A stretch of 44,010 bases of DNA from Candidatus Andersenbacteria bacterium RIFCSPHIGHO2_02_FULL_46_16 (GTDB taxonomy: Bacteria; Patescibacteriota; Andersenbacteria; UBA10190), in assembly GCA_001817065.1 (NCBI GenBank), contig MHHQ01000030.1, forward strand, positions 1 to 44,010, in the 5' to 3' direction. The notes beneath the pieces are model-generated. The model searched no databases. It was not told where the DNA came from and worked only from the letters and a program-made list of their open reading frames with translations. How positions within the stretch are numbered: the stretch's first letter is position 1; every line of letters begins with the position of its first letter. The position numbers and the translations under genes were made by a program. Shown piece after piece: positions 22,222 to 31,716 of this stretch.

Positions 22222-22296
22222 GGCCTCTTCGTCTAGCGGCTAGGACACCAGGTTCTCATCCTGGAAACAGGGGTTCAATTCCCCTAGGGGCTACCA
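22222..22296 (+). tRNA. tRNA-Glu (CTC), attachment site of the integrative element
   Basis: Acceptor GGCCTCT pairs with AGGGGCT (with G-U pairs). Anticodon stem CCAGG/CCTGG has loop TTCTCAT (anticodon CTC), T arm AGGGG/CCCCT has TTCAATT, discriminator A, and CCA is encoded at 22294-22296. Its 3' end forms one attachment core, and the antisense strand of its 3' half encodes the last residues of the recombinase. Confidence 0.95.
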
Positions 22297-23797
22297 AATG
22301 TGATTTATTGTCGCCATAGTCCCGAATTGTCTGTAAACATACTGATATTTTCGGGGTTCGACACTTCTCACCATCCCATTCAAGACCTTTCGGGAATAAG
22401 TGGCGTTGGAACTCTACGCGAGGTTCTATTTCTTTGATGATTTCCCATGTCACAGCCGGATTCTCTAGCATCGCCAATCCTTTGTTTATGAGCTGCTGTA
22501 TGTTTACTTCCTGATACTGAAACTTAGCTTGCTCTACCTGTACATCTTCAATTTCGCCGTCTACTTTTGCCTTGCGCTCTATATATTCTGCGCGTTCCAA
22601 TAACTCATACCTAGGATCGTTTATCATGGCGGTCACAATCTTCTCACGCTCCTCGCGCAACATAGCCAGCTTTTTACCAAAACGTGCGCCTTCTTTCTTG
22701 TGCTCGGTCGCTTTACTCTTGGCAATATCCAGCATGACCTTCTTGAAAAGGCTCACGTATTGCTTTTTTGGTTTGATAATTCTCATCACATCTTCAAAGC
22801 TAACATGAACTGTATCTTGTTTGAATGACCGCGCTAGAGGACATGTTTTATTGTGGTGGTGATAGTAAGGATGGCGTTTGCCGGTCTTGCTGGTTGAAAA
22901 GCTGCCTTTGAAATTCATTCCACATTTTGGACATCGCAGGCGCACAGGAAATTCAGGGTTATACTTACTGCGTTGTGGCGCGGGGTTGAACGATTTATCA
23001 TCCACGACTTTAATACGTAAGTACAATTCAGACGGGATGAGTGGTTCGTGACTGCCATTTATTGTTTCGCCAAAGGCTCGCATCGTGCCGTGATAGAAAG
23101 GATTGTGCATAATACGCCAGACTGATTGATTGTACGGATCATTGCCGCCGCGCATCTTAAAACCTCGTTTCCGCAATCCGTTCGCTATTGCTTCGTAACT
23201 ATATCCGGCAGCACGTTGTTTGGCCGCCCAGGTAATAAGAGAGCCGTATTCGGGATGCGGCACACATATGGTTTTGCCGGTTCCTGCCTCTTTGCTTTTT
23301 ATGTAGCCGGTCGGTGCCGGAAATGGCCAGACGCCTTCCTTAAAGCGTTTATACATGCCGTCACGAGTTCGTTCAGCACGAATAGCATTGTCGAGTTCTG
23401 CAACACCCCAAAGGATGCCTCGCATGAATTTTCCCACCGGAGAGTCATCAATGTTCTCAGTAGCAGAGGTTAGCGCGACCTGCGCTTGAGAGAGCTTATA
23501 CATGATCTTGTGTTGGTCGTCAGTGTTGCGAGAAAGGCGGTCTAGTTTGTAGACGATCAAAGCATCAATACGATCCTTGTTGGTTTGCAGGTACGCCAGC
23601 ATGTTCAGTAGCTCTGGCCGATCCGCGAACTTAGCTGATTCACCCTCTTCTTTAAAAATGCGGATTATATTGAATCCTTCTTTTTCTGCGTGGGCTTTGC
23701 ATCGTTCAACCTGCGTGTCGAGACTGGTTCCTTTTTCGGCTTGCTTATCGGTGCTCACCCGAACATAGAAGACCGCATTTTTTGTTTCCTGGCTCAT
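22256..23797 (-). CDS. large serine recombinase (integrase)
   Basis: A protein of 513 residues. The resolvase catalytic domain (about 1-150) has nucleophile S15 in YVRVSTDKQ, plus KLDRLSRNTDD and the helix E (GVAELDNAIRAERT). The recombinase DNA-binding domain follows (about 165-270, YSYEAIANGLRKRGF and NPFYHGTM), then a zinc ribbon (LRCPKCGMNF, with later Cys) and a coiled coil (about 365-440). It catalyses integration and excision through a Ser-DNA intermediate. The final residues (HLVAPRGIEPLFPG) are antisense to tRNA-Glu, so this C-terminus is created by the junction. An extended structured region precedes it. Confidence 0.93.
   Translation of the reverse strand: MSQETKNAVFYVRVSTDKQAEKGTSLDTQVERCKAHAEKEGFNIIRIFKEEGESAKFADRPELLNMLAYLQTNKDRIDALIVYKLDRLSRNTDDQHKIMYKLSQAQVALTSATENIDDSPVGKFMRGILWGVAELDNAIRAERTRDGMYKRFKEGVWPFPAPTGYIKSKEAGTGKTICVPHPEYGSLITWAAKQRAAGYSYEAIANGLRKRGFKMRGGNDPYNQSVWRIMHNPFYHGTMRAFGETINGSHEPLIPSELYLRIKVVDDKSFNPAPQRSKYNPEFPVRLRCPKCGMNFKGSFSTSKTGKRHPYYHHHNKTCPLARSFKQDTVHVSFEDVMRIIKPKKQYVSLFKKVMLDIAKSKATEHKKEGARFGKKLAMLREEREKIVTAMINDPRYELLERAEYIERKAKVDGEIEDVQVEQAKFQYQEVNIQQLINKGLAMLENPAVTWEIIKEIEPRVEFQRHLFPKGLEWDGEKCRTPKISVCLQTIRDYGDNKSHLVAPRGIEPLFPG
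22288..22297 (+). repeat. left attachment core at the tRNA-Glu 3' end
   Basis: GGGCTACCAA covers the last acceptor bases, the CCA and one more base. The identical sequence is at 31707-31716. Confidence 0.6.
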
Positions 23798-23822
23798 ATA
23801 CTCTTTAAATTACCATACAAAA

Positions 23823-23908
23823 ATGGACGTACTGGTTGACCCGAATACCGTAAGGCTTCGGCAGTACGCCCATCAAAAAAGCCTACGGATGTTATTTTTC
23901 GGGTCAAC
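23823..23908 (-). ncRNA. pseudoknot-like structured leader or terminator before the recombinase
   Basis: Helix A: GTTGACCCGAA (23835-23845) with TTCGGGTCAAC (23898-23908). Helix B nested in A: CCGTAAGGCTT (23848-23858) with AAGCCTACGG (23879-23888), one bulge. Helix C: ATGGACGTACTG (23823-23834) with CAGTACGCCCAT (23862-23873), one G-U. Helix C joins the loop of B to sequence outside A, so it forms either a pseudoknot or an alternative fold. On the minus strand helix C is followed by TTTTT, so it can act as a terminator after the ATPase gene or an attenuator before the recombinase. Confidence 0.5.
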
Positions 23909-23970
23909 AGCTTCATTATACTATTTTTTCCATTAAGGCGCATATACTGTCAGATTTGTTTTATCAATTA

Positions 23971-25308
23971 TCAGTCTTCTTTTGATAAAGTCTTTTCGAC
24001 GCTGTGCAATCGGAGTTGCTGGTATTCGTCTTCCAGGAACCAGTGGAATTCGGGCTTTAAGGTTATTTCACCCTCAGGGCGACCTACGGTTTCATCAGGA
24101 TCGCCGGACATGTCCACCACTTTGAGGATTGCAAGCGCTCGCATCTCCTTTAGAGCAGTAGGCTTTGAACAGGTCAATGCTTCTTCAACATCACTCGTGC
24201 TCATTGTCCCGCCGTATTCGAGCAGTTTATTAAACAATTTAGCCCTAGCAGGAGGGGCACTGTCAGCAGACAAGGCTAGTGCTGGCTTTAAGTCTGATTG
24301 CGCTATGGTATTGCGACCATAGATTATCGCGTGTCCTCTCGCTAGGTTATAGAAGCAAGTCAGTATACGATCCGGCTTTTCAATAGTCGGAGCGGTGAAG
24401 TTATACCGCGTCCCACCCTCTGCTTTTTCTTCCCACACATTGATTGTGCCTCGAAGTCTCGCCAGTAGACGCGCGCACCGCACTAAAACCTTTATCAATT
24501 CAGGGGCATCGCCTTCCTTGTCCCACTCGATTCCGGCCTGATGTTTGTGCCAGAGAGAGTAAATGAATTCTTTTGTCGCATCCCTACACTCATATTCCTT
24601 GTCCTTATAATTCGTTTCCCGAAGCTGGGTAACGTATTGATTGTCGTCCTTATCAGGGCTGTTTAGATTCAAGAAGAACAAACGCGACCCCAAATTGCCC
24701 ATTAACTTCCATACTCTTGGATTCATAGGCGTTGATCCGGCCAAGATGTTAAATAGGTAATCTCCAGTGTATTCACGCTGGCCGTGAACCCCTGTATCGG
24801 TCTGCAAACCTTCACCATCCAAGACTCTCGTTAAGACTCCAAGGCTCTTTAATAGGTCGTCATCACGCTGTCCAAAGATTGGTGCTAAATCGCGGATCAG
24901 GAATAGCTTGTGACGGATTCTCGGCAGTAGATCAATCTTTTCCAAGTCCTTGCGCTTCACATTCGTGGCATTGCTGACAAATGAAGCCGGAGTGAAAGTA
25001 TCGGTCGAATAGGTTATATCAGGAATATCAGAGAAAAAGTTTATCGTGATTGTTTTACCCGCACTCGGAACATCAACGAGTACAAGCGCAAAGGGATTTC
25101 GCACGTCCTTTATGAGTATTTGGGCTAGGACCGATAGGCCGACCTCTGCCGCAAAGCGATAATCAGGAAATAGCTTATCAATGGTCTCACCCCACTGGTC
25201 AATGTTTATGTGCCGGAGTGGCCTCGGTACTTTTTTAATGCGTGAATATGTCTCGACTCTCGCCTTATCAGCAATATCAAGCGTTCTTTTTACTTCACTT
25301 TCCTTCAT
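23971..25308 (-). CDS. P-loop ATPase, probable replicative helicase or initiator of the element
   Basis: A protein of 445 residues. Walker A is DVPSAGKT (about residues 79-86), a Walker B-like strand is KLFLIRDLAP, a sensor-like strand FNILAGSTP follows, and an Arg sits in GSRLFFLNL. This layout suggests an AAA+ or superfamily 3-type helicase core, with a C-terminal winged helix (STSDVEEALTCSKPTALKEM). Its start overlaps the stop of the CHC2 protein by four bases (ATGA), so the two are translationally coupled. Primase-type zinc finger plus ATPase is the usual replication module of phages and integrative elements. The exact family is not recognised. Confidence 0.65.
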   Translation of the reverse strand: MKESEVKRTLDIADKARVETYSRIKKVPRPLRHINIDQWGETIDKLFPDYRFAAEVGLSVLAQILIKDVRNPFALVLVDVPSAGKTITINFFSDIPDITYSTDTFTPASFVSNATNVKRKDLEKIDLLPRIRHKLFLIRDLAPIFGQRDDDLLKSLGVLTRVLDGEGLQTDTGVHGQREYTGDYLFNILAGSTPMNPRVWKLMGNLGSRLFFLNLNSPDKDDNQYVTQLRETNYKDKEYECRDATKEFIYSLWHKHQAGIEWDKEGDAPELIKVLVRCARLLARLRGTINVWEEKAEGGTRYNFTAPTIEKPDRILTCFYNLARGHAIIYGRNTIAQSDLKPALALSADSAPPARAKLFNKLLEYGGTMSTSDVEEALTCSKPTALKEMRALAILKVVDMSGDPDETVGRPEGEITLKPEFHWFLEDEYQQLRLHSVEKTLSKED

Positions 25309-25979
25309 AGGCGTTGCAATTCCACTACCGCTTCACGGAAGCCGCAATTACGAATCTTTTGAACAAACGTGATAACATCGCCACCTTCGCTACAAGCAAA
25401 ACACCACCAGCGTTTGTTCTCTGGGTAAACAACAAATGACGGTGAGCGGTCATCATGGAATGGGCATCGGCCTTTGTGTGTTCTCCCGCTCTGGCGTAGT
25501 TCAACCCATCGGCTTACCACGTCCACAATATCTAGCCGGTTCTTGAGTGTACTTACGTCAATATGGCCAGGAATGTCAGCGGGTTTGGTAAAAATCTTCT
25601 GCTGCTCCAATAGCTCTAAACAGTGTTGTAGTCGGCGAATGTGCCACTCAATCTGCCTCAGCTCCTGCTGCATTTTAGGGAGCATGACTTCATAGAGGCC
25701 GCGTAGTGAAATTTGATTTTCTATGATTGGTAATGTCAGGATAATACGTTCTAGCTCTATGATCTGTGCTTTCTTGCGCTGCCATTCCCGACAGTAGCGT
25801 TTCAGGTTGTCGCAGACAGGCTCACGGGCATCTTCACAAAATGTCTCAATCGCAATCTCCGGTGTAATCTCTGGAGCTGTGTACTCTTGCGCTCCCTCAG
25901 AACTAGACGGTACATTAAGGGCATGAAAAGACTCTCGTTTGCCACGCGGGTCTTTTTCTTTTTGTAACCTCTCACTCAT
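25305..25979 (-). CDS. CHC2 primase-type zinc-finger protein without primase core
   Basis: A protein of 224 residues. The C-terminal 75 residues match the DnaG zinc-binding domain: a lead helix (LKNRLDIVDVVSRWVEL), then CPFHDDRSPSFVV and WWCFACSEGGDVI, giving Cys-His-Cys-Cys zinc ligands. The N-terminal 140 residues are charged and helical. No TOPRIM or polymerase domain is present, so it cannot make primers alone; it may tether a host primase or recognise the template. The start at 25979 has AAAGGAGG six bases upstream; longer frames do not. Confidence 0.8.
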   Translation of the reverse strand: MSERLQKEKDPRGKRESFHALNVPSSSEGAQEYTAPEITPEIAIETFCEDAREPVCDNLKRYCREWQRKKAQIIELERIILTLPIIENQISLRGLYEVMLPKMQQELRQIEWHIRRLQHCLELLEQQKIFTKPADIPGHIDVSTLKNRLDIVDVVSRWVELRQSGRTHKGRCPFHDDRSPSFVVYPENKRWWCFACSEGGDVITFVQKIRNCGFREAVVELQRL

Positions 25980-26118
25980 CACGAGCCTCCTTTCGCGCCT
26001 GCTCATACGCTTTCTCCCCAATGAAATAGAAGAAGGCGAGAACATCCTCCAGCTCTTTGTCACTTACTTCGTAGCCCTGCGGCAATGCCTCGCGGGCTTG
26101 TTCAAGCGTCAAAGTCAT
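25972..26118 (-). CDS. 48-residue coupled micro-ORF
   Basis: MTLTLEQAREALPQG, then an acidic helical protein with AFFYFIGEKAYEQARKEARDE at the end. The ATG at 26118 overlaps the previous stop by four bases (ATGA), and its stop overlaps the CHC2 protein start by eight. AAGGTGA lies about six bases before the start. Unbroken coupling on both sides supports real translation. No known family. Confidence 0.6.
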   Translation of the reverse strand: MTLTLEQAREALPQGYEVSDKELEDVLAFFYFIGEKAYEQARKEARDE

Positions 26119-26357
26119 AACCGCTCACCTTCGTAAATGAGCTGCTTGGCTCGTCTTTCCGCTGCCCAGAAGTCTGAGGGGTCACAGCGTAGTTCTCCTC
26201 GCTTGAGCTGGGTTAAGTTCTGTTGTAATCGCGGGCTGTCCTCAAATACAAAAACGACTCTCCTCGGATTGCTGGTATCCGTTGAGAGAATTGGATGCTT
26301 CTGCATCAGCAAAACACTGGCTGTCAGAAAATCGCTTGTTTCGTATTCTATCGTCAT
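26115..26357 (-). CDS. DUF5659-like small protein
   Basis: A protein of 80 residues resembling DUF5659: TSDFLTASVLLMQKHPIL, SNPRRVVFVFEDSP, then GELRCDPSDFWAAER. Proteins of this kind are common next to primase and helicase genes in mobile elements of CPR and other bacteria; the biochemical role is unknown. It heads a chain of four overlapping genes. Its SD is buried in a hairpin at 26368-26387. Confidence 0.7.
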   Translation of the reverse strand: MTIEYETSDFLTASVLLMQKHPILSTDTSNPRRVVFVFEDSPRLQQNLTQLKRGELRCDPSDFWAAERRAKQLIYEGERL

Positions 26358-26367
26358 AAATAATTCT

Positions 26368-26387
26368 GCCTCCCATTCTAGGGAGGC
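26368..26387 (-). promoter_or_regulatory. hairpin sequestering the SD of the replication operon
   Basis: GCCTCCC (26368-26374) pairs perfectly with GGGAGGC (26381-26387) around six bases. On the minus strand GGGAGG, the only SD before the ATG at 26357 (11 bases away), is the 3' arm. There is no T tail, so it is not a good terminator. The stem could gate translation of the operon. Confidence 0.45.
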
Positions 26388-26419
26388 TGCGCAAAGAAAC
26401 GACGAGAAAAAAGCGAGAT

Positions 26420-27295
26420 TTACGTGGTATTTTTACGATCAACTTTCTGGTTACCGCAACGTAACGCATAACCCTGCTTTGGCTTGGTCACGATCATATT
26501 TTCTATATCCCTGTCATCCATGCCAGCGTCGCGCAGTATGTTCTTGAGATCACGCAGAATAGTTTGTATTACACGGCCGTGACTCTGATGGGGTAACACC
26601 TTAATTTCTCTTTCGCCAACTTTTTTAGTTCCTGTCTCCGGTGCAGACAAGTCGAATTCCGCACCCAACTCTAAGTAGGTAACAGTATTTGGCTGTTTTT
26701 CCAACAAAAGCTTAAGCATTCTCATTGGCTTCGTTTCTGCTGAAATCTCCTTGGCTTTATGCTTATCGTATTGCACTGTGCCCTTGCTAAAGTCCGCCGC
26801 CAGTCCGGCGCATATCAATGTATCTTCCTTGCTAGGAGATTGGGGCTGTTTATTACCGTCTAGAACCTGGACTCTGCTTTTCCTTACCGCCTCCTCCATG
26901 TGCTTTAGTTCTTCAAAGTCCTTTATCTCTAGTAGGAATATATTGTCACTCTCTTCTTTCGAGACGTGAACGCCATAATGTTTGATTGAGCTAATAGAAT
27001 ACGCTTGGGTTAACCAAGAATCATTGCCTTCGAACAATGGCATCGTAATTTTCTCTGTCCTCGCAACCCTGCCCTCTGGGTCCACTTTGCGGAGGACCGC
27101 GACTATATCCTCGTATTCAAAACCCTCTTTTCGGAATCCGTTCAATGGGATTTTATTGAATGTCAGCCGATTAACTGCTCTTATCTCCACCTCGTCCATG
27201 AGGATTTTCAGAACCTTCTGGACCCTCTCCAGGTTGCCAGGGGAGAGTTCGGTAAGCCAAGTATATTGCGTATTTATCTTCATTCTCATTTGCAT
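26420..27295 (-). CDS. winged-helix regulator of the element (OmpR-type C-domain)
   Basis: A protein of 291 residues. The C-terminal 95 residues match the OmpR/PhoB winged helix: MRMLKLLLEKQPNTVTYLEL, VIQTILRDLKNILRD, and IENMIVTKPKQGYAL where the wing motif is expected. The N-terminal 190 residues have mixed alpha/beta character, with no receiver phospho-Asp motif that I can identify. It could be the element's repressor or replication initiator. It diverges from the cargo genes across a structured region. The start at 27295 is chosen by length; ATGs at 27289 and 27283 are possible. Confidence 0.6.
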   Translation of the reverse strand: MQMRMKINTQYTWLTELSPGNLERVQKVLKILMDEVEIRAVNRLTFNKIPLNGFRKEGFEYEDIVAVLRKVDPEGRVARTEKITMPLFEGNDSWLTQAYSISSIKHYGVHVSKEESDNIFLLEIKDFEELKHMEEAVRKSRVQVLDGNKQPQSPSKEDTLICAGLAADFSKGTVQYDKHKAKEISAETKPMRMLKLLLEKQPNTVTYLELGAEFDLSAPETGTKKVGEREIKVLPHQSHGRVIQTILRDLKNILRDAGMDDRDIENMIVTKPKQGYALRCGNQKVDRKNTT

Positions 27296-27344
27296 ATTTG
27301 TTCTATTCAGGGTACACCAAAAACACAACGAAATATAGCCTAAA

Positions 27345-27478
27345 CCCTGCCTTTGGGCAGGGCATGGCGTAAACCCTCAGAGATACTGAACCCATCGTTC
27401 AGCACTTCTCTGAGGTCATAGCTGGAAACGGCTATGGGCAGCCGTAAGGTTGCCGCTGGCGGTGGGCTTTGTGTTTAC
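27345..27478 (+). ncRNA. multi-helix structured RNA upstream of the cargo genes
   Basis: Consecutive perfect or near-perfect hairpins: CCCTGCC/GGCAGGG (27345-27362), CCTCAGAGA/TCTCTGAGG (27375-27415) with inner CTGAAC/GTTCAG, CATAGC/GCTATG (27417-27436) and GGCAGCC/GGTTGCC (27437-27454) with a GTAA tetraloop. GTAAAC (27369-27374) and GTTTAC (27473-27478) can close the last three into a multi-branched junction. It lies 31 bases before the prepilin-like gene. It fits no riboswitch class that I recognise. The strand is assumed from the cargo orientation. Confidence 0.5.
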
Positions 27479-27509
27479 TGCCAAAAGTGCTATTAAGAGC
27501 AGGTTACTT

Positions 27510-28424
27510 ATGACTATGAGAATAAAAAACAATCACCGTTATTTTCAGCAGGGTTTTGCCTTACTGCCTGTTATTATTGCTATCGCGGCGTTAGTTCTTG
27601 TTGGTGGCGGAGGTGCTGCCGTATACCAAGTCCAGCGAAGCAACGAAGTGGAAAAATCAGCGCTACGCCAAGAGCTGCAAGAACTGCAAAATCAGAAAGA
27701 GGAGGAGACCGTCGAGGAAGAGTCCATGAAGGAAGATAAGCAGGAAGAGGAATCATCGCCAACACCTTCACCCGCCCCCGAGTCAAAGCCAGTAGTCAAG
27801 ACCGCCACAACTTCCGCACCTACAACAAATCAGCCAGCCGCCAGCGAGTCCAATATACCGCTCATTGTCGAGCAGGAATTTGAGAAAGCGTATGGTCGTA
27901 AGCCATCGAGTGCCGAGAGCAATTCTTGGAAAAGCAAATACCGCACTAATTCGTGGTCACGGAGCCAGTTATATGACGCTCTCGTGGCTTCTCAGCCAAA
28001 ACCCTCAGCCGTAGCAAACACCAGCTCGACTCAGAACAACAAATCAAGCGCAGTCAGCATTGAATTGTGTAAGACCAACGCAAAAGCAGAAGCAGATAAA
28101 ATGTTAAATGACGCGCTAGCAAAATCTCCCATGCTTTTGGAGTTAACCGCATCCACAAAGATACGCGACATTGAGCAGGCGGCATTAAAATATGGGGTTA
28201 TCTCTCAATCAGAAGTCCCTGACATACAGTCCAGTTACTATGGTTTTAAGAATAGTGGCGCTTCGACTCAAGAAGCACAGCAGCTCACACAAACAACACT
28301 TGCTGCATATAATTCTTGGCTAGGAGATATTCAAGACAAAGCTCAAGCACAGCTTAATGCATTGCGGGCAAAAAGGGATAAAATAGAGGAGGAACTATAC
28401 TCAAAGTGTCTCAGTAACCTTTAA
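27510..28424 (+). CDS. prepilin-like surface protein with DUF4214-like segment
   Basis: A protein of 304 residues. The N-terminus is basic, then QQG followed by FALLPVIIAIAALVLV, a type III (prepilin) signal and helix as in CPR surface proteins; Pro replaces the Glu at position +5 of mature pilins. A charged coiled coil (residues about 45-85), a Pro/Ser/Thr linker, a DUF4214-like motif (EQEFEKAYGRKPSSAESNSW), and a C-terminal helical region follow. It is likely exported and assembled or anchored at the surface. The start at 27510 is preferred to 27450, which lies in the structured region. Confidence 0.65.
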   Translation: MTMRIKNNHRYFQQGFALLPVIIAIAALVLVGGGGAAVYQVQRSNEVEKSALRQELQELQNQKEEETVEEESMKEDKQEEESSPTPSPAPESKPVVKTATTSAPTTNQPAASESNIPLIVEQEFEKAYGRKPSSAESNSWKSKYRTNSWSRSQLYDALVASQPKPSAVANTSSTQNNKSSAVSIELCKTNAKAEADKMLNDALAKSPMLLELTASTKIRDIEQAALKYGVISQSEVPDIQSSYYGFKNSGASTQEAQQLTQTTLAAYNSWLGDIQDKAQAQLNALRAKRDKIEEELYSKCLSNL

Positions 28425-28434
28425 TAGCGAAATT

Positions 28435-29427
28435 ATGACGATGAGAATAAAAATTAACTTTCTTGTTCCAGCCCTCCTCCTTATCGGACTAGGTGTTGGC
28501 AGTGCGGTTGTTGCTAATACTGATACCGATGCAGCTAAAGCCCTTTTGCGGGAGATAATAGAATGTGCCAAGCAAGCCAAGAAAGACAAGTTGCTGAAAG
28601 GCTATGAAGTGGCTAATATCACCCGTCCAGCCAATCATGCCCTGCGGGACTTAAGAATCTATGAGCAACGTCTTAAGCAAGGCCGAGATGAGGCAGCCCA
28701 GGATCGTTACGAGTCGTACCTTGAGAATTTAGATAAGATTGACGAGGCTCTTGATGAGATAAATAAGAGGCCAGAGCGAGAGGAATTTGTTGAGAAGATA
28801 CGAGCACTACTTAATGAGATTCGTAACCCTTCAACCTCTCTGGCGATTGTCGAGGATAACTTCAATGACTATACCAATGGCTCTGTTGTTGGGCAGGGTG
28901 GCTGGGAGAGCTACGTCAACGGTGAGAACTTTATTGTCCAGGATGCCGTTACCAACGAAGGAGACAAGGCACTTCACATCAGCGCTTTGGCCGACAGTGT
29001 TGCAACCAAGAAAGGCACGCCGCGTTCAGATGGTAGACAGGCCGTATATGTGCGGACCGAGAACCGCTCTAGCTGGGGTCCGTATCCTGATGGCAACGCC
29101 CAGTTTCGCGTAACTAAAAACTCATGGGCTGGCGGGACGGATATTTTTGCGGCTGTCACTTTCAAGAGCGATGGCAATGTAGCCTACTTCGACCCCATCA
29201 GTGAGAGCTATCAAGACTTTGATACCTACAACGACAACGAGTGGACGTTATTAGAAATTGAATGGCGTTCAAGTGATAAAATGGCCCGCTACCGAATGAA
29301 CGAAGGCACATGGACGGACTGGAAAACATTTAAGGGTGCCGCGTCGTTTACAGACTTTGATTATGTCGGATTCGATTTCATTCTGCCTAGCGGGTCGGGA
29401 GGGGTGCGTTTTGATACGCTGAAATAG
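28435..29427 (+). CDS. secreted protein with helical stalk and lectin-like C-domain
   Basis: A protein of 330 residues. A signal peptide or anchor (about residues 6-27) is followed by a charged helical segment (30-140). A C-terminal beta-sandwich of concanavalin/LamG type begins with DNFNDYTNGSVVGQGGW and ends with a VGFDF strand. Such domains bind glycans or other surface ligands. It starts 10 bases after the prepilin-like gene and begins with nearly the same first 20 bases. An adhesion role is inferred. Confidence 0.65.
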   Translation: MTMRIKINFLVPALLLIGLGVGSAVVANTDTDAAKALLREIIECAKQAKKDKLLKGYEVANITRPANHALRDLRIYEQRLKQGRDEAAQDRYESYLENLDKIDEALDEINKRPEREEFVEKIRALLNEIRNPSTSLAIVEDNFNDYTNGSVVGQGGWESYVNGENFIVQDAVTNEGDKALHISALADSVATKKGTPRSDGRQAVYVRTENRSSWGPYPDGNAQFRVTKNSWAGGTDIFAAVTFKSDGNVAYFDPISESYQDFDTYNDNEWTLLEIEWRSSDKMARYRMNEGTWTDWKTFKGAASFTDFDYVGFDFILPSGSGGVRFDTLK

Positions 29428-29434
29428 AGGCTGT

Positions 29435-29674
29435 GTGAGCTACAAACATCAAGCATTATTGGTAGTCAGCATCCTTGCAACTGCGACCGCTTTGCTAATC
29501 GCGAGCTTGAGCTTTGCTTTTAGTCAGTACATTCGGATACTAGAACATAACCTTGATGTTGTGAACAGTATGCGATTATGTGCCAACTTGAGCGGTGAGG
29601 CAGTCGGTGACTGTTCTGATGCAGTAAAGAGGCAAAAGGTAACACTGCCTTTTAAATTGTTTGGCTATGAGTAG
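29435..29674 (+). CDS. tiny single-pass membrane protein
   Basis: A protein of 79 residues with a GTG start just after AGAGG and seven bases beyond the lectin-like gene stop. One N-terminal hydrophobic helix (about residues 7-30), then a polar part with two Cys (CANLSGEAVGDC) that could form a disulfide outside the membrane. Its stop overlaps the next start by eight bases. No known family. Confidence 0.5.
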   Translation: MSYKHQALLVVSILATATALLIASLSFAFSQYIRILEHNLDVVNSMRLCANLSGEAVGDCSDAVKRQKVTLPFKLFGYE

Positions 29675-29891
29675 TTTCAGAGAGTCGGCCGACAAGCTGT
29701 CAAAGAACTGGAAAAACACATTGATATATTTGATTTCAGCCTTTGCGTTGGGTGGGCTCATTGGAGACACCACAAAGAATGAGCTTTTGTTGTCGCTGTT
29801 TTTCATTCTCATCATATTTCTTATTTTTGCTTGCCTTGAGGCAGATCCCGTATTTCCTAATTTGTTCCGCTCTAAAAGCGATGATGAGTGA
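29667..29891 (+). CDS. tiny two-helix membrane protein
   Basis: A protein of 74 residues with two adjoining hydrophobic segments (about residues 20-36 and 40-60) and short charged ends. It overlaps the genes on both sides by eight bases, which suggests translational coupling. Family unknown. Confidence 0.5.
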   Translation: MSSFRESADKLSKNWKNTLIYLISAFALGGLIGDTTKNELLLSLFFILIIFLIFACLEADPVFPNLFRSKSDDE

Positions 29892-30192
29892 CAATCACGT
29901 ATCATTTCTTGGGTGGATAAAGTCTGTCGTAAATTTTTTCTATGGCTTTGATGTCCCAGATGAATACCGAGGTGCAACATTTGATGTGAAGCAAATGAAC
30001 TCAATTTCTGATCCAGAGTTGAAATTAGTAGCAGCTTACGGTTGGAAGGAGCAAAACTTTGACCCGATGTCTAACAATAAAAAGTGGGAGATGGGATTGT
30101 GGGTTGAAAAGCAAGCCTCAAGAGTAAATATGAAGCTGGGTTTTTTCTTCGGGTTCTTTGTAGCTAGTATTATCTGGCTCATTCTTCAGTGA
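29884..30192 (+). CDS. small C-terminally anchored protein
   Basis: A protein of 102 residues (starting MSDNHVSFLGWIK). A soluble N-terminal 75 residues precedes one C-terminal transmembrane helix (LGFFFGFFVASIIWLILQ), so it is tail anchored. The start at 29884 is favoured by overlap coupling; the frame upstream of it is the shadow of another gene. It is the last gene of the cargo operon. Unknown family. Confidence 0.5.
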   Translation: MSDNHVSFLGWIKSVVNFFYGFDVPDEYRGATFDVKQMNSISDPELKLVAAYGWKEQNFDPMSNNKKWEMGLWVEKQASRVNMKLGFFFGFFVASIIWLILQ

Positions 30193-30578
30193 TGACAGCT
30201 AACCCGCACGGGCGTTCCTCTTGAGCGGAACCGCCGCGCTGGACCTCATCTGTCATCGCCAATCCCTTACCGTCTGCCAAGTAAATAGCGAAAACCACAA
30301 TCATCCTGCCGAGCATTTCCGCCTGGCGTATCCGCCGACGTGGGGCGGACGAACGTCGGGCGGCCTGAACGTCGCAAGAATGCGAAATTTTCAGACATTC
30401 GCCAGCAGTCCCTTTAGGGACTTAGTAGCTGTCGAACGTCATTGAAAATTAGCATTTTGCGGACGTTCTAGCCCAGCCGCCGTTAGCGGCCAAAGGCCGC
30501 CCCGCCCCATTCCTGCGGAAAGCTGCAGGGCAAAGCCCTGCCACGACGCGCATCCATAATCCCAACAAGGCTTGGATG
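30191..30578. ncRNA. long GC-rich structured noncoding region
   Basis: No convincing gene lies in 30193-30579. Inverted repeats follow one another: GATGACAG/CTGTCATC (30191-30257), CCGACGT/ACGTCGG (30335-30359), AGTCCC/GGGACT (30407-30422), GAACGTC/GACGTTC (30434-30468), GCGGCC/GGCCGC with AAA loop (30486-30500), GCAGGGC/GCCCTGC with AAA loop (30525-30541) and CATCCA/TGGATG (30551-30578). GAACGTC also occurs near 30351 and 30366. Either strand could be transcribed. A structured RNA or an origin-like region are both possible. Confidence 0.4.
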
Positions 30579-30579
30579 G

Positions 30580-30882
30580 TTAGTCCGTACTTATCTCCTC
30601 AACCATTCCTTTGTATCGCTGCCTGCGGTAATCCACATCCAAACACTCCCGACACCCTACAGCTCTCGACAGCGGGTGTTTAAGCAGCACACCGCATCGC
30701 CGTTCACAAGTAGGACAAATGAACCAGGTGCGCTTTCCGCCGTACTGTGTGCTCGTGGTGGCCATCTTTACATTGTAATCGCCAACTTCAATGCCTGACT
30801 CAATAAGGACCTGGCGTGCCTGTTGGACCGTTTGCCGGACCACTTCATTCACCCCGATTCTTTGGCATTGTTCTACTAACAT
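30580..30882 (-). CDS. zinc-ribbon protein of mobile-element type
   Basis: A protein of 100 residues. After a helical N-terminus, a beta motif (GKRTWFICPTCERRCGVL) and a second Cys pair (GCRECLDVDYRRQRY) match a zinc ribbon common in plasmid, phage and integrative-element proteins, usually written as W-F-x-C-P-x-C-G-R-R then C-R-x-C-x-x-L-x-Y-x-S-Q. Function is unknown, presumably nucleic-acid binding. It starts six bases after the neighbouring 224-residue gene ends. Confidence 0.6.
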   Translation of the reverse strand: MLVEQCQRIGVNEVVRQTVQQARQVLIESGIEVGDYNVKMATTSTQYGGKRTWFICPTCERRCGVLLKHPLSRAVGCRECLDVDYRRQRYKGMVEEISTD

Positions 30883-30888
30883 CCTAAA

Positions 30889-31563
30889 TCATTTGGGGTT
30901 TATGATTTCCTCGTCTTCTTTTGGCTCTGGTTTGTCCATATTGAACTGCTGCGCTTGGGCGACATAGGCGTTCTTGGTTTTTAGGTGGACGTTCAGGGGC
31001 GGTTGCTTGAGCTGAACCAGCATTTGGTAGGAAGTTGTGAAATGGCGGTGAGCGCGGTCAATTTCCTTGCTCATAGTGGACATAAACTGGTTAAGGTTGT
31101 TACTAGTTGATCCTTGCTCCACGCAGCGGGTAAAGGCTTGGGAGGCGCGGAGCACTCTCATATAGCCGCTCACGGCCATGTCAACCAGGGCTTTTTCGGC
31201 ATGGGTTTTGCAGTCAAAATCCTTGATGAGCTTACGGCGCAGCTCAACGACCAGTCCTCTATAATGCTCGGAGACTGCCAGAACAAGTACATAGTCGTTA
31301 TCGAAACCAAACGTCAGAGCCGCAGTTGTCGCTTCATCCTGTTCTGCCTGATAATCATAGTCATCTCGTTTAACCATTTTGTTGAAGATTCGCTCCATAT
31401 CTGCCAGATTCCATCGGTCAGGATCAAAAGCAAAACTTACACTTTCAAGTATTAGCTCCCTGATTTCTGCGTTGGTGACCTTTTTTGCTATGCTTTTCGG
31501 ATTGCTTTTGGCAAGTGCAGCGGATTTACTTTTGGGTTGTCTTTTGGCTATTTTCTTCGTCAT
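30889..31563 (-). CDS. unknown basic-tailed helical protein of the element
   Basis: A protein of 224 residues. The N-terminal 30 residues are rich in Lys, Ser and Ala (KKIAKRQPKSKSAALAKS), followed by a mostly helical body (EHYRGLVVELRRKLIKDF, ALVDMAVSGYMRVLRAS) and an acidic C-terminus (PKEDEEI). The basic tail suggests nucleic-acid binding. It is paired with the zinc-ribbon gene. No family recognised. Confidence 0.55.
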   Translation of the reverse strand: MTKKIAKRQPKSKSAALAKSNPKSIAKKVTNAEIRELILESVSFAFDPDRWNLADMERIFNKMVKRDDYDYQAEQDEATTAALTFGFDNDYVLVLAVSEHYRGLVVELRRKLIKDFDCKTHAEKALVDMAVSGYMRVLRASQAFTRCVEQGSTSNNLNQFMSTMSKEIDRAHRHFTTSYQMLVQLKQPPLNVHLKTKNAYVAQAQQFNMDKPEPKEDEEIINPK

Positions 31564-31706
31564 GGGATTGATCGTAAGGGTTCCACTATCAGGCTAAATT
31601 CAACTAAGCGTAGTGCTTGCTGCTAACCCACCGCCAAGTACTCGCTCCCGAAACGCTGCTAATGCCTGCAATTCTGTTACAATGGAGTTCCACTTACTCT
31701 TAATAC

Positions 31707-31716
31707 GGGCTACCAA
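31707..31716 (+). repeat. right attachment core
   Basis: GGGCTACCAA, an exact copy of the core at the tRNA-Glu 3' end. The interval to the left (31564-31706) has no gene of its own, but on the minus strand it could continue the recombinase frame if the two cores were joined. Confidence 0.55.

Follow-up and report, generated by a model that had tools for sequence, protein, structure and literature searches.

The window, a stretch of 44,010 nucleotides, is one whole contig (C30) of a parent genome of 1.36 Mb that is 98.5% complete, and the relatives of this genome in the phylum sample are Patescibacteria. Positions 22288–31716 hold an element located at the 3′ end of a tRNA-Glu(CTC) gene. Encoded in it are a large serine recombinase (LSR), a replication operon and a divergently oriented cargo operon, together with two genes termed zn100 and p224 (Table 1). 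The element is a 9.4-kb integrated, plasmid-like mobile element of a CPR bacterium.

Table 1. Features of the element and its insertion site, in window coordinates
Feature	Position	Strand	Remarks
tRNA-Glu(CTC), attB target	22222–22296	+	ARAGORN, Rfam
LSR, 513 aa as integrated	22256–23797	−	
Left attachment core GGGCTACCAA	22288–22297	+	
Inverted repeat between integrase and ATPase	23798–23945		fold z −2.4/−3.0
MCM-like AAA+ ATPase	23971–25308	−	C-terminal winged-helix-like part
CHC2 zinc-finger protein, no Toprim domain	25305–26063	−	PF01807, 97 bits
48-aa micro-ORF	25972–26118	−	
DUF5659 protein, 80 aa	26115–26357	−	PF18903, 33.5 bits; in about 10 related elements
302-aa protein, possible regulator	26420–27328	−	weak winged-helix match only
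LOOT RNA (RF03000), leader of cargo operon	27337–27454	+	85.9 bits; gathering threshold 46.4 bits
Prepilin-like or membrane-anchored cargo protein	27511–28424	+	
330-aa cargo protein	28435–29427	+	earlier labelled lectin-like
Three small ORFs	29435–30192	+	hydrophobic segments
Strongly folding region between cargo and zn100	30310–30450		z −6.2; no Rfam match
zn100, 100-aa cysteine-rich protein	30580–30882	−	in about 18 related elements
p224, 224-aa protein	30889–31563	−	in 8 related elements
Conserved integrase tail (RIKSKWNSIVTELQALAAF...)	31600–31706	−	joined to integrase frame only in circular form
Right attachment core GGGCTACCAA	31707–31716	+	

The tRNA-Glu gene is intact and ends in AGGGGCTACCA, with the CCA encoded in the gene, and a copy of its 3′-end bases (GGGCTACCAA) is present at the far boundary. 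Taken alone, a 10-bp core repeat near a tRNA end is weak evidence for a boundary; by simple arithmetic, about 0.3 matches per 10 kb are expected by chance. We accept the repeat as the boundary because it lies exactly on the 3′ terminus of the tRNA, a genome of the same family is free of the element, and the right core coincides with a match to the tail profile described below. In the element-free genome (G008) the gene order is PBP, MurF, one ORF, tRNA-Glu, purD, a zinc-ribbon gene, SOD, p515, p284 and RmuC: the flanking genes of the window in the same order, with none of the element's genes between them. The comparison concerns flanking gene order in different genera of one family. MurF stays near tRNA-Glu in further family members, and the CCA encoded by the window tRNA-Glu is absent from the tRNA-Glu gene of the element-free members. 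The difference reflects either insertion in the window lineage or loss elsewhere, and we favour insertion because of the boundary repeats.

These results bear out the original prediction of a tRNA-Glu-inserted integrative element with replication genes, a serine recombinase adjoining the tRNA, a 10-bp core repeated 9.4 kb away, and a divergent cargo operon; comparison of relatives at the tRNA-Glu site, which it had proposed, gave the element-free order above. An old, immobile and decayed island with a fortuitous repeat is highly improbable. The repeat is short and no circle was observed, but all main ORFs are open, the repeat coincides with both the tRNA end and the tail, and related elements are distributed patchily across families.

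The predicted coupling of ATPase, CHC2 and micro-ORFs in one operon is also seen in the sequence, the CHC2 ORF overlapping the start of the ATPase by 4 nt (ATGA). With moderate confidence, the predicted fold of the ATPase resembles MCM helicases (MCM2-7, MCM8/9), RavA and BchI/magnesium chelatase. Foldseek, run on a moderate-confidence model, returned MCM proteins as best matches (E 4e-5, TM about 0.4). The likeness to MCM-type AAA+ helicases with primase modules is one of predicted fold; the sequence-only search was uninformative and gave no match to solved structures. Single-protein searches of genome and viral contigs gave no match; an ATPase alignment search did find relatives. Among the other genomes of the phylum sample, eight encode homologues (46–57% identity), and across many other CPR genomes identity is mostly 46–59%; the ATPase is found at 42 loci in GTDB genomes, mostly CPR, with no match in PLSDB or INPHARED. 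Outside CPR, the loci carry the labels Melainabacteria, Caenarcanales, WOR-1, Neomarinimicrobiota, Opitutales and archaea; some are short contigs and could be misbinned. The distribution is patchy in CPR genomes and across families, with an LSR and a tRNA typically adjoining. Domains were read by eye: most relatives are longer, the ATPase being preceded by CHC2- and Toprim-like parts; in L055 a primase-polymerase-like N-terminus replaces these parts; and in the window the protein is split and has no Toprim. Primase activity of the window CHC2 protein, which lacks the Toprim domain, is doubtful.

The cargo region is less defined. Of the three strongly folding noncoding regions predicted earlier, the LOOT RNA and the region between cargo and zn100 hold up (z −6.2 each), and the inverted repeat between integrase and ATPase folds more weakly. 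LOOT is found in 83 of 380 phylum genomes. It occurs 13 times in 1.37 Mb of LSR element loci, about 27-fold enriched, though three of these loci supplied seed sequences for the model. Among the labels given earlier to the cargo, that of tiny membrane proteins agrees with the hydrophobic segments in the small ORFs, and neither 'lectin-like' nor 'prepilin-like' has a significant Pfam match. A lectin fold for the 330-aa protein is unconfirmed, its predicted model being poor (pLDDT 37). For the prepilin-like protein a single weak relative was seen, in the element L027 (26% identity). For the earlier suggestion that surface-displayed cargo alters attachment to a partner, we find nothing beyond the hydrophobic segments. 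As predicted, the ten largest element proteins scanned contain no match to virion, conjugation or restriction families. The same ten include no relaxase, coupling protein or type IV secretion genes and, in PHROGs and Pfam scans, no virion, packaging or lysis genes of temperate phage; the PHROGs matches are to integrase and primase only, the spanin-like matches being weak (E>0.007).

The integrase has a resolvase catalytic domain (PF00239, 122.7 bits; S15 is invariant in the alignment), a recombinase domain (PF07508, 44.2 bits, over the cut-off) and a zinc-ribbon match below its cut-off (PF13408, 17.4 against 25.3 bits); it contains no tyrosine recombinase catalytic domain. The catalytic and recombinase domains and the short core are shared with phage large serine integrases (TP901-1, StB27 and others), but the alignment with these ends near residue 463, and the element LSR has an extension beyond it that crosses attP. 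The most informative feature of the locus, absent from the original prediction, is that the LSR frame passes through the 10-bp core and reaches its stop codon inside the tRNA-Glu gene, antisense. The attachment core is inside the integrase gene, and the last 13 residues of the integrated enzyme (LVAPRGIEPLFPG), from LVA onward, are read from the core and the antisense tRNA. Two further LSRs in the same genome run into antisense tRNA, at tRNA-Tyr and tRNA-Arg, and most ATPase-family elements have the same layout, with many kinds of tRNA gene.

We surveyed 102 Patescibacteria LSRs chosen independently of the ATPase. Antisense tRNA is overlapped by 83 of them; 6 have a tRNA nearby without overlap and 13 have no tRNA. 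With all loci pooled, overlap is seen in 77 of 85 tRNA-facing LSRs and in 0 of 8 other convergent genes (Fisher p=1.3e-7). An integrase stop ahead of the tRNA is rare. Neither a circular junction nor an excised copy was seen, and in none of the 102 is the tail in place. Among tyrosine recombinases, a weak control since their lengths suggest host Xer, a tRNA lies within 1.5 kb in 6 of the best 30 loci. Tyrosine integrases can likewise terminate in tRNA-antisense peptides. The gene layout of the element is widespread across CPR. Overlap by itself was rejected as proof, and the tail was analyzed in addition, because antisense tRNA frames are often open.

When the ends of the window element are joined at the core, the integrase frame continues into a different C-terminus, ...LVARIKSKWNSIVTELQALAAFRERVLGGGLAASTTLS, giving a predicted enzyme of 538 aa. 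The right ends of the window element, L134, L161 and L162 were defined by DNA repeat search, and the sequences after the core in the last three are LVGGTWNLIVADLKAWREF (L134, tRNA-Glu), RLKSDWNLICSELSRWKQQ (L161, tRNA-Met) and LIYANWNDILWDIQRIKGV (L162, tRNA-Arg). For many type-B loci this search found no right end. A tail profile was built from these four tails and applied leave-one-out. It ranked the in-frame core copy first in L066, L133, L136, L140, L142, L144, L157 and L164 and second in L141. Among the 15 loci with a top score of at least 18.5, the best match fell on an in-frame core copy in 11, against 3 of 63 decoys; the nominal joint log10 p of the scan is about −33, with loci treated as independent. 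With the profile built without the window element, its right-core frame is the best of 7,768 windows scanned. Strong profile matches were also seen in L095, L138, L139 and L153 without a matching core copy, perhaps as ends of other elements. Longer tRNA fragments (19–21 bp) at L132, L133 and L148 were set aside as right ends. In L133 and L148 a shorter in-frame core yields a tail resembling the others; since the tail itself influenced this choice in part, L148 is left out of the set below, and L133 is included on the strength of the blind profile scan.

In 13 elements, which occupy six kinds of tRNA gene, the tail is conserved as protein, mostly as x5-W-N-x-I-x-x-E-L, and always starts at the core; for a given frame class, its distance from the end of the tRNA is constant. 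W-N is at the same position in 11 of the 13 tails; Y-N replaces it in L141, and L164 deviates. Identity among the 13 integrases is mostly 17–46% (one pair, 59%). The tail is probably helical. In a codon test on pairs picked after the tails had been seen, tails are more alike as protein than DNA divergence predicts for the window against L161 (P=1e-4), L162 (0.0016) and L134 (0.026), and the similarity falls in the other two frames. A second tail type, ETMxDWYxVL, is found in two copies in L053 (L053a and L053b) and in L150, with P 1e-4 for L053a against L053b and against L150. In L053 (16769–16779 and 19939–19952) and in L140, one right-end core follows another and their tails are related, as if related elements had inserted in tandem. 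The two right-hand cores of L053 have about 60 bp downstream in common, as tandem elements or a repeated structure.

Could the tails be alike because attP is conserved as DNA read by the integrase, the open frame being a by-product? The nucleotides adjoining the core show strong conservation in L049/L069 and in L135/L148, and the L049/L069 pair (P 0.09) is not above the DNA-level expectation. Yet the conservation reaches 50–70 nt away from the core in a single reading frame, with third codon positions varying, and P falls to 1e-4. DNA conservation alone is thus largely refuted and is a very unlikely explanation, while the first ~8 codons of the tail may be conserved as DNA, the core-adjacent bases being an integrase-binding site. 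Because the LSR frame runs through the core and the tail, conserved at the protein level, always begins there, integration is predicted to be an event that must swap the conserved tail for a tRNA-antisense peptide. The boundaries, the frame, the tail conservation and this predicted swap are read directly from the sequence.

What makes a serine integrase integrate rather than excise is a central problem, commonly explained by a separate directionality factor. We suggest that the tail swap probably acts as a self-limiting switch, in which the 538-aa enzyme of the circle integrates and the 513-aa integrated form lacks the tail. We infer circular replication, a role of the tail in direction, and loss of p224 and zn100 expression. 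The circle would replicate by its own module of CHC2 protein and MCM-like helicase, and the LSR would recombine attP with the 3′ end of tRNA-Glu. Because attP falls within the 3′ end of the integrase gene, the circle would encode the enzyme with the tail and the integrated copy the enzyme with the antisense peptide. The tail would most likely be required for, or strongly favour, the integration reaction. In the predicted circle p224 starts only 36 nt after the integrase stop, so the replication genes, the integrase, p224 and zn100 could form a single operon in this order. By severing this operon after the integrase, integration would separate p224 and zn100 from it. Integration would also end production of the integration-competent enzyme, a one-shot step, and the integrated form would not readily repeat or reverse the reaction. 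The two forms of the enzyme could, on the other hand, act alike.

A less probable reading, which we consider rather unlikely, is that the swap is real but direction is set by a separate excision factor. The position of attP in the 3′ end of the gene would then come from enzyme and site moving together as a compact unit, and the tail would only stabilise the protein or aid DNA binding. This would fit the strong divergence of the tail outside W-N and E-L and the otherwise intact appearance of integrated LSRs. Phage LSRs align just to residues ~2–463, so catalysis may not need the tail region, and p224 or zn100 could be the excision factor. A dispensable tail, however, should leave many genes stopping before the core, and such stops are rare. 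Extending the self-limiting tail swap to Patescibacteria as a whole, where serine integrases would have taken over tRNA targeting and the swap would set direction without a separate directionality factor, is a tentative proposal, about which we are somewhat more doubtful than hopeful.

In mycobacteriophage integration-dependent immunity of the BPs type, attP lies in the repressor gene and integration alters the repressor, the integrase being tyrosine or other. The element is similar in that attP lies in a gene whose C-terminus is changed by integration, but here the core crosses the integrase gene, not a repressor gene. The archaeal 'suicidal' tyrosine integrases (SSV1, pTN3, pT26-2; PMC8371274) also have attP in the integrase gene, a product altered by integration, and targets that include tRNA genes. 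They differ in that the element enzyme is a serine recombinase of an unrelated family, its hosts are bacteria, mainly CPR, and only the C-terminal tail is exchanged, leaving the catalytic domain unsplit. A 2021 review of the archaeal systems states that self-disrupting integrases are limited to archaea (PMC8371274), and a 2014 paper that tRNA genes are not known as targets of serine integrases. tRNA genomic islands with tyrosine integrases (Islander, PMC4383910) share the 3′-end insertion and the displaced fragment at the far end, whereas the element enzyme is a serine one. We found no published report of the integrase/attP/tail arrangement in the open-access literature; subscription papers are mostly outside this search and priority is unproven. 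The arrangement would add serine integrases to the enzymes that target tRNA genes and show that integrases which alter themselves are not confined to archaea. It would also establish a mobile element common in CPR bacteria, a group for which little is known about such elements. A natural family with a recombination-rewritten C-terminus would supply matched long and short enzymes for tests of directionality, and its many tRNA-specific serine integrases are potential genome-engineering tools.

Some ATPase-family elements have other integrase ends. In L062 (13185–13395, Melainabacteria-labelled) the LSR enters a group I intron that seems to interrupt a tRNA. L051, L057, L059 and L063 carry a divergent LSR group whose 3′ end is without a tRNA; three of the C-termini are alike (I-H/N-R-x-x-W) and may mark another target.
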